This document shows, piece after piece, positions 59,793 to 64,000 of a stretch of DNA of 64,000 nt (positions within the stretch are counted from its first letter, which is position 1; each line of letters begins with the position of its first letter). The notes beneath the pieces were generated by a model. That model did no database searches. It was given only the letters and a program-made list of their open reading frames with translations, and was not told where the DNA came from. The stretch is taken from positions 124,001 through 188,000 of the forward strand of contig NZ_PDNU01000008.1 of NCBI RefSeq assembly GCF_002631185.1, in the 5' to 3' direction. The position numbers and the translations under genes are program-made. The DNA is from Teichococcus rhizosphaerae. GTDB taxonomy: Bacteria > Pseudomonadota > Alphaproteobacteria > Acetobacterales > Acetobacteraceae.

Positions 59793-60251
59793 TCAGCCGC
59801 CAAGCGCGGCCTTCACCATCGGCCCCGCCTTGGCCATGTCCAGCGTCGCGGCGTGCTTCGCCTTCAGCGCGGCCATGACCTTGCCCATGTCCTTGATGGA
59901 GCTGGCGCCGCTCTCGGCCACCGCCTCGGCCACCGCGGCCTGCATGGCGGCATCGTCCATCTGCCGCGGCAGGAAGGACTCGATCACGGCGATCTCGGCC
60001 GCCTCCTTCTCCGCCAGCTCCGGGCGGTTGCCCTGGGTGTACATCTCGACGCTCTCGCGGCGCGACTTCACCATGGAGCGCAGCATGGCGACGATCTGCT
60101 CCTCCGGCACCTGCTCCACGCCGCTGGGGCGGGCGGCGATGTCGGTGTCCTTCAGCTTGGCCATGACCATGCGGATGGTGGAGGTGCGGGCCGCATCCTT
60201 CGCCACCATGGCGGCCTTCAGTTCCTGGGTGAAGCGTTCGCGCAGGCTCAT
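59793..60251 (-). CDS. GatB/YqeY domain-containing protein
   Basis: A 152-residue helical protein: LRERFTQELKAAMVAKDAARTSTIRMVMAKLKD, then SYTQGNRPELAEKEAAEIAVIESFLPRQM-like helices and GKVMAALKAKHAATLDMAKAGPMVKAALGG, the YqeY fold that also ends the GatB amidotransferase subunit. A role in tRNA-dependent amidation is supposed but not shown. GGAGAG lies 6 nt ahead of the ATG. It is upstream of dnaG with a 50-nt gap, so likely the first gene of this operon. Confidence 0.93.
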   Translation of the reverse strand: MSLRERFTQELKAAMVAKDAARTSTIRMVMAKLKDTDIAARPSGVEQVPEEQIVAMLRSMVKSRRESVEMYTQGNRPELAEKEAAEIAVIESFLPRQMDDAAMQAAVAEAVAESGASSIKDMGKVMAALKAKHAATLDMAKAGPMVKAALGG

Positions 60252-60324: not shown

Positions 60325-60385
60325 TGGGAATTTTTTTCCCAATTCCGGCCCTCTGGTTGCGCCGGGAAATTTTTTCCCACATAAC
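60325..60385 (+). promoter_or_regulatory. Twin 17-bp palindromes and candidate promoter of carA
   Basis: TGGGAATTTTTTTCCCA (60325-60341) and CGGGAAATTTTTTCCCA (60363-60379) are near-identical palindromes 38 bp apart in an otherwise GC-rich region. TTGCGC (60357-60362) and CATAAC (60380-60385) form a -35/-10 pair whose 17-bp spacer is exactly the second palindrome. Binding there would block polymerase. The predicted start, near 60391, falls on the carA ATG. The divergent yqeY starts at 60251. Confidence 0.6.
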
Positions 60386-60391
60386 GTGCCC

Positions 60392-61798
60392 ATGCGGTCC
60401 GTGGATGACATCATCGCCCTGATGGGCGGCAGCGAAGCCGTGGCCGAGCGCTGCGGCGTCGGCACCGAGGCGGTGCGCAAGTGGCGCCAGTCGCGCGCCA
60501 TTCCCGCCAAGCACTGGCCGGCGATCCTCGCCGCCACCGGCCTTTCCCTGGCGGAGCTGGCCGCCGCCCCCACCCCGCAGACCGAACCGAGCCCGGAGAC
60601 GCGCATGCCCGCTTCCGCCACCCCGACCGATGGCCAGACCAAGGACCAGCCCCCCGCCGGCGCCACCGCCGCGCTGGTGCTGGCCGATGGCACGGTGTTC
60701 TGGGGCGTGGGCTTCGGCGCCCACACCACCAATGTGGGCGAGATCTGCTTCAACACCGGCATGACGGGCTACCAGGAAACCCTGACGGACCCCTCCTATG
60801 CCGGGCAGATCATCACCTTCACCTTCCCGCATATCGGCAATGTGGGCGCCAACGCGGAGGATGTGGAGAGCATCACCCCCGCCGCGCGCGGCCTGGTGGT
60901 GAAGCTGGACCTGACGGAGCCGGCCAATTACCGCGCCACCCGCCATCTCGACGACTGGCTGAAGAGCCACGGCATCCCCGGCATCGCCGGCATCGACACC
61001 CGCGCGCTCACCGCCCGCATCCGCGACGGCGGGGCGCCGAACGGCGTGCTGGCCCACCCGCAGGACGGCCGTTTCGACATCCCCGCGCTGCGCGCCCAGG
61101 CCGCCGGCTGGCCGGGGCTGGAGGGCATGGATCTCGCCCGGGACGTCTCCTGCCGCCAGTCCTATGCCTGGACGGAAGGGCTGTGGTCCTGGGGTGAGGG
61201 CTACAACGTGGCGCCCGCGCGCCGGCACAAGGTCGTGGCGGTCGATTACGGCGCCAAGCGCAACATCCTGCGCTGCCTGGCCGATGCGGGCTGCGAGGTG
61301 ACGGTGCTGCCCGCCACCGCCACCGCCGAGGACATCCTCTCGCACAAGCCGGACGGCGTGTTCCTGTCCAATGGCCCCGGCGACCCGGCGGCGACGGGCG
61401 AATACGCCGTGCCGGCCATCCGCGGCGTGCTGGACAGCGGCACCCCCGTCTTCGGCATCTGCCTCGGCCACCAGCTCCTGGCGCTGGCGCTGGGCGGCCG
61501 CACCTTCAAGCTGGACCGCGGCCACCGCGGCGCCAACCAGCCGGTGAAGGACCTGGCCACCGGCCGCGTCGAGATCACCAGCCAGAACCACGGCTTCGCG
61601 GTGGACGAGAAGTCCCTGCCCGAGACCGTGAAGGTGACGCATGTGTCGCTGTTCGACGGCTCCAACGAGGGCATCGCCGCCACCGACCGGCCGGCCTTCT
61701 CGGTGCAGTACCACCCCGAGGCCAGCCCCGGCCCCTCCGACAGCCACTATCTCTTCCACCGCTTTGTCGAGATGATCGAGAAGCACAAGGCGGCCTGA
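60392..61798 (+). CDS. carA: Carbamoyl-phosphate synthase small subunit with an N-terminal helix-turn-helix
   Basis: A 468-residue product: about 70 residues longer than usual CarA. Residues 1-60 form a Cro/YdaS-like helix-turn-helix (SEAVAERCGVGTEAVRKWR at 14-32, then IPAKHWPAILAATGLSLAELA). A Pro/Thr-rich linker follows, then CarA from about 92, with the glutaminase: Cys357 in GICLGHQ and His441/Glu443 in QYHPEAS. It provides ammonia from glutamine for carbamoyl phosphate (arginine and pyrimidines). The frame has no stop between the parts, but an ATG at 60605 with GGAG 8 nt upstream could give a normal 397-residue CarA. The first ATG has no ribosome site and may be leaderless. Confidence 0.93.
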   Translation: MRSVDDIIALMGGSEAVAERCGVGTEAVRKWRQSRAIPAKHWPAILAATGLSLAELAAAPTPQTEPSPETRMPASATPTDGQTKDQPPAGATAALVLADGTVFWGVGFGAHTTNVGEICFNTGMTGYQETLTDPSYAGQIITFTFPHIGNVGANAEDVESITPAARGLVVKLDLTEPANYRATRHLDDWLKSHGIPGIAGIDTRALTARIRDGGAPNGVLAHPQDGRFDIPALRAQAAGWPGLEGMDLARDVSCRQSYAWTEGLWSWGEGYNVAPARRHKVVAVDYGAKRNILRCLADAGCEVTVLPATATAEDILSHKPDGVFLSNGPGDPAATGEYAVPAIRGVLDSGTPVFGICLGHQLLALALGGRTFKLDRGHRGANQPVKDLATGRVEITSQNHGFAVDEKSLPETVKVTHVSLFDGSNEGIAATDRPAFSVQYHPEASPGPSDSHYLFHRFVEMIEKHKAA

Positions 61799-61825: not shown

Positions 61826-62584
61826 ATGGCTGGGATGTTCGACCTGACGGGGCGCGTGGCGCTGGTCACCGGCGGCAATGGCGGCATCGGCTTCGGCATG
61901 GCGCGCGGCCTCGCCGCCTGCGGCGCGCGCGTGGTCATCGCCGGCCGCAACGCGGAGAAGAACCAGGCCGCCGCGTCCGCGCTGGGCGGCGGCACCCTCG
62001 CCCTGCGGGCCGAGCTGACCGACCCCGCCGTCCCGGCGAGGCTGGTGGAGGACGTGCTGGCCCAGGCCGGCCGGCTCGACATCCTGGTCAACAATGCCGG
62101 CACCAACATCCGCAAGGCTCCGCACGAGGTGACGGACGAGGAGTGGATGACGGTGCTGGACACCAACCTGACCAGCGTGATGCGCCTGACCCGCGCCGCC
62201 TACCCGGCGCTGAAGGCCAGCGGGCATGGGCGGGTGATCAACATCGGCTCCATGCTGTCGATCTTCGGCGTGTACTTCTCTCCCGCCTACGGCGCCAGCA
62301 AGGGCGCGGTGGTGCAGTACACCAAGTCCCTCGCCGCCGCCTGGAGCGCCGATGGCATCACCGCCAACGCCATCCTGCCCGGCTGGATCGACACCGACCT
62401 GACCCGCAAGGCGCGGCAGGACGTGCCGACCCTGAACGACGCCGTCATCGCCCGCAGCCCCTGCCGGCGCTGGGGCGACCCCAAGGATTTCGGCGGCATC
62501 GCCGCCTTCCTCGCCAGCGACGAGGCCGCCTTCATCACCGGCACGGCCATCCCGGTGGATGGCGGCTTCTCGATCCAGGGCTGA
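61826..62584 (+). CDS. SDR family oxidoreductase (KduD/FabG-like)
   Basis: A 252-residue short-chain dehydrogenase. The NAD(P)-binding TGGNGGIGFGMARGL is at about 16-30, NNAG near 91, and the catalytic set is Ser in NIGSMLSIF with Tyr and Lys in YGASKGAVVQYTKSLA. NAILPGWIDTDLT and ITGTAIPVDGGFSIQG are typical. The substrate is unknown; the pattern resembles gluconate or 2-deoxygluconate dehydrogenases. GGAGGAGG lies upstream. It starts 27 nt after carA, so it sits inside the carA-carB interval and may be cotranscribed. Confidence 0.93.
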   Translation: MAGMFDLTGRVALVTGGNGGIGFGMARGLAACGARVVIAGRNAEKNQAAASALGGGTLALRAELTDPAVPARLVEDVLAQAGRLDILVNNAGTNIRKAPHEVTDEEWMTVLDTNLTSVMRLTRAAYPALKASGHGRVINIGSMLSIFGVYFSPAYGASKGAVVQYTKSLAAAWSADGITANAILPGWIDTDLTRKARQDVPTLNDAVIARSPCRRWGDPKDFGGIAAFLASDEAAFITGTAIPVDGGFSIQG

Positions 62585-62602
62585 CGCCATGGGCGCGGTC
62601 TG

Positions 62603-63235
62603 ATGCCCTCGCTCGCGGCACTCCTGGCCTTCGCCGCCCTTTCCGTGGGCCTCGCGGTCACGCCGGGCCCGAACATGCTCTATCTCGCCTCCCGCACCCT
62701 GGCGCAGGGGCGGCGGGCGGGGCTGGTCTCCCTGGCCGGCTGCCAGACGGGCATGGCGCTGATCATGCTGGCGGCCGCCGCCGGGGTCACCGCGGCGCTG
62801 CTGGCCGTGCCTTACGCCTATGACGCGCTGCGCCTGGGCGGCGCCGCCTATCTCGGCTGGATGGCCTGGCAGACGCTGCGGCCGGGCGGCGCCTCGGTGT
62901 TCGAGCCGCGCGCCCTGCCGCCGGAGCCGCCCGCGCGGCTGTTCACCGTGGGCGCCGCCACGGCGCTGCTGAACCCGAAGGTGGCGCTGTTCTACGTGGC
63001 GGTGCTGCCGCCCTTCATCGACCCCGCCCGCGGCAGCGTGCTGGCGCAGGGCATCATCCTGGGCAGCGTGCAGGTGCTGATCGGCGCGCTGTTCGACATC
63101 CTCCTGGTGCTGGGCGCCGGGGGCATCTCCACCTTCCTGGCCAGGCGGCCCCTCTGGCTGGCCGCGCAGCGCTATGTGCTGGGCGGCGCGCTGGGGCTGA
63201 TCGCCGTCAAGCTCGCCACCGATTCCCGCCGATAA
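62603..63235 (+). CDS. LysE family translocator
   Basis: A 210-residue inner membrane exporter with six hydrophobic segments. The LysE/RhtB pattern is clear: [38 protein letters not shown], then [17 protein letters not shown], and [21 protein letters not shown]. It exports amino acids or similar compounds; the substrate is not predictable. It starts 18 nt after the SDR gene and ends 11 nt before carB, so all four genes are probably one transcript. Confidence 0.93.
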
Positions 63236-63246
63236 GGTCCTCCCCG

Positions 63247-64000
<754 letters not shown>

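Follow-up and report, generated by a model that had tools for sequence, protein, structure and literature searches.

A phage-type repressor domain fused to CarA across the Acetobacteraceae, with paired palindromes on the carA promoter and a probable second start

The carAB operon of Escherichia coli is controlled by ArgR, PurR, RutR, IHF and PepA (PMC6245113). PepA is a trigger enzyme that represses the carAB P1 promoter (PMC6245113). The likeness to the locus presented here is that an enzyme would have a second role at a promoter for biosynthetic genes. PepA differs in being a separate aminopeptidase, whereas in the protein described here, HTH-CarA, the regulated enzyme itself carries the domain and the putative sites lie on its own promoter. 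PutA, BirA and NadR combine an enzyme and a DNA-binding domain in one chain and act on genes of their pathways; they differ from HTH-CarA in their domains, enzymes and sites, HTH-CarA having a Cro-type domain and an internal start that could yield the domain-free enzyme. Phage Cro and YdaS-like repressors have the same type of domain as the front of HTH-CarA, but they are short free proteins, whereas here the domain forms the front of a metabolic enzyme.

NCBI already lists the domain as the "carph-isopro domain" (NCBIfam NF046037). NF046037 is a model of the domain only, and since both CarA and LeuA fusions, the domain of the window among them, score over its cut-off, the name suggests that its curators had noticed the domain on carbamoyl-phosphate and isopropylmalate synthases. 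A search of the full-text literature for "carph-isopro" found no mention, and among the full-text matches listed, which cover few subscription papers, there was no report of HTH-CarA, its operators, autoregulation or two starts. New here is the presence of paired conserved palindromes on the promoter of the HTH-CarA gene. It is also unusual that the enzyme bears a repressor domain of phage type, that it very probably controls its own promoter, and that a second start inside the gene can, to judge from its sequence, make the plain enzyme.

The window, a stretch of 64,000 nucleotides from Teichococcus rhizosphaerae, contains a reading frame on the plus strand that is open throughout from an ATG at 60392 to the stop codon at 61796-61798. 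Its product of 468 residues consists of a Cro-type helix-turn-helix, a linker rich in Pro and Ala, and a full-length CarA. The helix-turn-helix, of Cro/YdaS type, comprises residues 1-56 (60392..60559, plus strand), as assigned from profile matches, an alignment and a structure profile. NF046037 ("carphisopro") matches residues 4-56 with 65.8 bits (E 3e-18) in the whole protein and 70.3 bits (E 1.1e-19) for the domain on its own, passing the curated cut-off of 38. The Pfam model YdaS_toxin (PF15943, gathering score 30) gave 32.7 bits for the domain alone and 29 for the whole protein, and P22_Cro (PF14549) did not reach its cut-off of 30.2, with 24.4 and 20.4 bits, respectively. A domain profile of 31 relatives matched solved structures including Cro 3bd1, XPH1 5w8y, 2hin and Cro 1rzs, and the phages behind the Cro structures are presumably Xfaso 1, N15 and P22. 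It is these matches that argue for a kinship with Cro, the P22_Cro model staying below its cut-off. Conserved within the domain is [TS]EA[VI]RKWRQ (residues 25-33), part of the turn and recognition-helix region GVGTEAVRKWRQ (residues 22-33, 60455..60490, plus strand), and E26, A27, R29, K30, W31 and R32 are unchanged in all 31 aligned rows.

The linker, delimited by translation and comparison of linkers, spans residues 57-91 (60560..60664, plus strand) and is followed by the CarA core (60665..61798, plus strand), which was assigned from the TIGR01368 match, alignments and a genome search. TIGR01368 matches residues 93-464 over model positions 1-361 of 361 (463.8 bits, E 3.5e-139, cut-off 307.35), and the solved CarA chain 1t36_B aligns over 374 residues. 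C357, H441 and E443, which we take to be the glutaminase Cys, His and Glu, are unchanged in 41 of 41 aligned rows. The fused CarA is the only CarA in its genome. A second, plain carA was ruled out, as the three further matches were partial, 32-33% identical and confined to the amidotransferase half. Since the CarA sequence is intact and the genome has no other CarA, HTH-CarA is likely to be active as an enzyme. The frame is followed by two open reading frames within 61826-63235, presumably SDR-like and LysE-like, and by what we take to be the start of carB (63247..64000, plus strand), cut by the window end; the divergent gene on the other side (59793..60251, minus strand) is presumably YqeY-like.

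The fusion of the domain to CarA is a trait of the whole family and not of this genome alone. Of 200 genomes sampled from the family, 189 had the domain, representing 97 of 102 genera, and in 130 of 132 inspected loci (L001, L009-L037, L113, L114 and L116-L215) it shares one open frame with the CarA motif. The two exceptions are L036, which runs off its contig, and L037, which has a frame break; in L130 the domain is joined to CarA, but the frame ends early. Twelve family genomes were checked for a missing domain, 11 without a match and G167 with a weak one. Six of these had no CarA match at 1e-40, four had partial CarA matches, with two of them starting right at a contig's first bases, and only G029 and G116, both of genus g29, combine a full CarA with absence of the domain. 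Among named genomes 345 relatives were found, and in 78 of the best 80 the CarA core follows in frame, the other two running off the contig. The nearest of these 80 is Pseudoroseomonas aestuarii (97%); they include Roseomonas, Pseudoroseomonas, Neoroseomonas, Belnapia and further genera, which we take to be Acetobacteraceae, as well as MAGs labelled Acetobacteraceae, Rhodospirillales or alphaproteobacterial. When 385 genomes were drawn from the whole class, 91 had the domain at E 1e-5 and 73 had it over the family cut-off. CarA stood beside it (tblastn) in only two of 69 class loci, L113 and L114, both from the family of the window; the 69 are 29 new loci from this draw and 40 added to them, about 30 further matches of the draw being left out.

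The initial annotation had proposed a Cro-like helix-turn-helix in front of CarA, and the NF046037 match as well as the Cro structures in the profile search bear this out. It had also proposed that the two parts form one polypeptide, and had suggested looking in relatives for stop codons between them. The single open frame of the 130 loci agrees with the fusion. The annotation needs amending in two respects: the fusion extends through the family and is not confined to this genome, and NCBI had catalogued the domain before.

Two palindromes of the form [T/C]GGGAA-N5-TTCCCA, 38 bases apart, are located upstream of carA. Putative operator 1 is TGGGAATTTTTTTCCCA (60325-60341) and putative operator 2 is CGGGAAATTTTTTCCCA (60363-60379), both without assigned strand, found by palindrome search and compared with the relatives, in which the motif was counted; in shuffled sequence of 64 kb, 0.01 palindrome matches at 3 mismatches are expected. 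Operator 2 fills the 17-bp spacer of a putative promoter. The putative -35 hexamer TTGCGC (60357..60362, plus strand) has its T, T and G at 88, 81 and 85% in 121 aligned upstream regions, and the putative -10 hexamer CATAAC (60380..60385, plus strand) is proposed from the sequence and the column pattern of these regions, which around operator 2 shows TTG, a stretch of 17 bases and a less marked -10 of [T/C]A[T]A type.

Nine of the 132 loci were left out of the operator parse, having a variant helix outside the search pattern, and the counts are on the remaining 123. At least one GGGAA-N5-TTCCC site of at least 8/10 was found within 150 bases upstream in 122 of them; 111 have two sites and 11 only one. 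The mean number of sites per upstream region is 1.95 versus 0.148 after dinucleotide shuffling, and a perfect site is found in 108 loci, with a shuffled mean of 0.0016 per upstream region. Across the relatives the arms are fixed and the centre is free. The start-to-start spacing of the pair is 36-41 bases in 97 of 110 loci with two sites, and in 99 of 122 loci the start codon follows the first arm base of operator 2 at a distance of 27-30 bases. Six of the nine loci left out have two sites of at least 8/10, L192 and L201 have one, and in L203 the start was mis-set; L183 has no site reaching 8/10. Among the best 80 of 345 relatives, a set partly overlapping with the wide one, 79 have two sites and one has a single site. 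These paired palindromes are the strongest evidence for function, and they were not among the observations of the initial annotation. The operators share their intergenic region with the divergent YqeY-like gene (59793-60251); co-regulation of this gene is possible.

The position of the promoter puts the probable start of transcription at or beside the ATG at 60392. The first start is probably leaderless, so that HTH-CarA would be made from a leaderless mRNA, defined as a transcript beginning within 3 nt of the start codon (PMC5756330). The promoter hexamers predict this, and the Shine-Dalgarno counts agree: such a sequence precedes the first start in 15 of 97 loci with operator 2 abutting the start and in 17 of 23 with operator 2 displaced (3 of 123 loci were left out). 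An in-frame GTG at 60386, two codons before the ATG, gives a reading of 470 residues; the ATG is favoured because of its conservation in the family and the leaderless layout.

A probable second start is located in the linker, where an internal ATG (60605..60607, plus strand) would give a 397-residue CarA without the domain. It has a Shine-Dalgarno sequence, GGAG (60595..60598, plus strand), 6 bases before it, and both elements were assigned from the sequence and a comparison of linker ATGs. The linker sequence with an ATG and a Shine-Dalgarno sequence, scored as at least 4 bases of anti-Shine-Dalgarno complement 3-12 bases away, is kept in 71 of 78 near relatives (from the best 80 of 345, 2 left out). 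In the wide set it was found in 63 of 109 loci and was absent in 46 (14 of 123 left out). Loci whose first start seems leaderless have the internal start more often (62 of 97 versus 8 of 23 loci, p 0.017, uncorrected for kinship).

It might be that the fused form is the only product and that the internal ATG with its Shine-Dalgarno sequence is a remnant of an old carA start or due to chance. The 46 loci of the wide set that lack this start speak for such a reading, as does the observation that few of 18 other HTH-enzyme fusions show a good Shine-Dalgarno sequence and ATG near the enzyme core. However, methionine makes up 3.2% of linker residues versus 0.78% of the core, and a Shine-Dalgarno sequence precedes 64 of 80 linker ATGs, compared to 343 of 2272 other linker codons and 64 of 387 core ATGs (15-17% of the controls); together with the retention in near relatives, this makes a fused form alone doubtful. 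It is very probable that HTH-CarA and plain CarA are both produced in the window's clade, and some other clades may make the long form only. The opposite case, in which only free CarA is made and the upstream 71 codons are untranslated or separately translated, has in its favour that leaderless mRNAs are a minority in Gluconobacter oxydans, with 62 of 1344 start sites assigned to genes (PMC5756330). We consider it very improbable: the protein sequence of the domain is conserved, and 130 of 132 loci have it in a single open frame with CarA, with linkers whose length varies between 9 and 66 codons in 111 measured loci (12 of 123 left out). An error of sequencing or assembly, by which a stop codon was lost and the frame opened, can be dismissed almost completely. 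Nothing was found in its favour, and it is refuted by the domain in 189 of 200 genomes and by the relatives, 78 of 80 being in frame and the other two off the contig, and the 130 loci with one open frame rule out a lost stop as well.

The palindromes could also be operators of another regulator, with the fused domain placing CarA at other DNA or helping its assembly. Separate regulators are standard for car genes, as in the case of E. coli carAB described above (PMC6245113). Nevertheless we regard this explanation as unlikely. In both g29 genomes, which represent one clade, no operator site above 7/10 was found and the domain is absent too, thus domain and sites are missing together. Residue 33, which directly follows the RKWR core, is usually Q. 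Both outer G:C letters are present at 291 of 341 sites with Q33, compared to 1 of 12 with T, H, A or S at this position (Fisher 1.9e-8, uncorrected for kinship; 3 loci and duplicates left out). Such a site is missing in 8 of 121 Q33 loci, and one is present in 1 of 7 non-Q33 loci. On a tree of CarA cores (4 of 132 loci left out), residue 33 changes 5 times, and no more than 2 independent pairs are supported; averaged over the draws, the operator follows the expected direction in 1.6 of these 2 and the opposite one in 0.0, and the sign test is not significant, since two pairs are too few to reach significance. The covariation of residue 33 with the outer base pair of the operator is therefore suggestive, and not significant once kinship is allowed for. 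In L183, L192, L201, L207 and L174, which have A, S or H at residue 33, CGGA...TCCG-type sites replace GGGAA...TTCCC. A further argument against another regulator is that the genome of the window has no second close pair of sites, and palindromes different from those of carA precede some other enzymes that carry a domain of this type.

Within two mismatches of TGGGAANNTTTTTCCCA, nothing besides the two carA sites was found in the own genome. The exact GGGAA-N5-TTCCC pattern occurs in 13 places versus 6 for a reversed control, and only the two at carA stand close together; a wide regulon of the domain was rejected on this ground. A looser operator pattern gave 26 rows versus 7 for the control, each palindrome being counted on both strands. 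Since the exact and looser matches both exceed their controls, the domain may have further genomic targets.

The same domain type precedes HisZ, PyrB, ArgB, CoaBC, GlmU and pyruvate dehydrogenase E1 alpha in other alphaproteobacterial families (L087, L092, L098, L089, L109, L093, L101, L095 and L110; L052 and L056 were left out of this survey). Several of these domains remain below the NF046037 cut-off of 38, for example those of HisZ L092 (35), ArgB L093 (34.8) and pyruvate dehydrogenase L095 (31.9). A fusion to LeuA (2-isopropylmalate synthase), L356, was found in one genome outside the class, scoring 69.8 against NF046037; its internal ATG, preceded by GGAG, is the clearest such start among the 18 other HTH-enzyme fusions. 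In a phylum-wide draw, 11 of 13 matching genomes outside the class have the domain in frames of at most 156 codons, that is, as short free proteins. Among the class loci a Mic60/mitofilin-like protein carries the domain most often, as judged by eye (L047-L075 and others; L060 was tested in Pfam). Further fusions join a YdaS-type domain to a protein of nitrate reductase delta type (L099) and to one that is TorD-like (L106, below the TorD cut-off), and in L239, L240 and L243 the helix-turn-helix stands, by eye, before a crotonyl-CoA carboxylase/reductase-like protein, with upstream repeats that are not significant.

Palindromes just before the start were found at several of these fusions: TTCATA...TATGAA at HisZ (one family), TTGCG...CGCAA at PyrB, TTAC...GTAA at ArgB and TTCAC...GTGAA at CoaBC. 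HTH-PyrB is present in 3 of 11 genomes of its family, and all three have the TTGCG/CGCAA palindrome before the start, two of them single-copy by eye. We scored pairs of palindromes in the last 100 bases before the start, a locus passing if its score was matched by at most 3 of 60 shuffles. Six of 17 non-CarA enzyme fusions passed (L222, L223, L224, L225, L226 and L231) and 11 stayed below the threshold (L227, L228, L229, L232, L233, L234, L235, L236, L237, L241 and L247), and the extension to other enzymes is therefore only partial. None of three Mic60-like and none of three tentative Ccr fusions stood out; of three CarA loci, the window's own and L251 passed and L238 did not. Own palindromes at other HTH-enzyme fusions are thus a lead, and the match between the type of recognition helix and the type of half-site across the enzymes, judged by eye, is suggestive.

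Taken together, it is quite probable that HTH-CarA represses its own promoter and that an internal start supplies free CarA. Transcription would start at or next to the ATG at 60392, and the leaderless first start would yield the 468-residue HTH-CarA. Paired domains of this protein would bind GGGAA-N5-TTCCC at operators 1 and 2, and the presence of two sites suggests that binding is cooperative. Since operator 2 fills the promoter spacer, its occupancy should repress and not activate, by covering the spacer and blocking RNA polymerase. Expression of carA would be turned down when HTH-CarA is plentiful, or when it is in the right state of assembly or ligand binding with CarB; surplus CarA, binding of CarB, UMP or ornithine are candidate settings. 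Ribosomes entering at the internal Shine-Dalgarno sequence and the ATG at 60605 would make the 397-residue CarA without the domain, so that enzyme output could exceed repressor output. CarA works as a complex with CarB. E. coli CPSase can form an (alpha-beta)4 complex with four CarA subunits, and we speculate by analogy that such a holoenzyme would present four domains, the number needed by two palindromes. Two starts, with products of 468 and 397 residues, and control of the own promoter had both been put forward in the initial annotation; the former gains support from the linker ATG and Shine-Dalgarno sequence kept in near relatives, and the latter from the conserved paired operators and the joint absence of domain and operators in g29, as far as sequence comparison can tell.

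A broader reading is conceivable, and we put it forward tentatively, as somewhat less probable than its negation. Phage-type repressor domains would have been captured repeatedly in front of biosynthetic enzymes, including LeuA, PyrB, ArgB, HisZ, GlmU and CoaBC, and each fused enzyme, with palindromes on its own promoter, would measure and set its own amount. For CarA, the leaderless start for the repressor-enzyme and the internal Shine-Dalgarno start for the plain enzyme would fix the ratio of the two forms, and the state of the CarA-CarB holoenzyme (CarB, UMP, ornithine) would decide the grip on both operators.

If self-repression by HTH-CarA is correct, control of carbamoyl-phosphate synthesis for pyrimidines and arginine would need no separate regulator in this family, the CarA enzyme itself being both sensor and repressor. 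The locus would be a simple case of how fusion lets a metabolic enzyme take charge of its own gene, a second start within that gene separating the jobs of enzyme and repressor, and the same self-control would be predicted for other enzymes that carry this type of domain.
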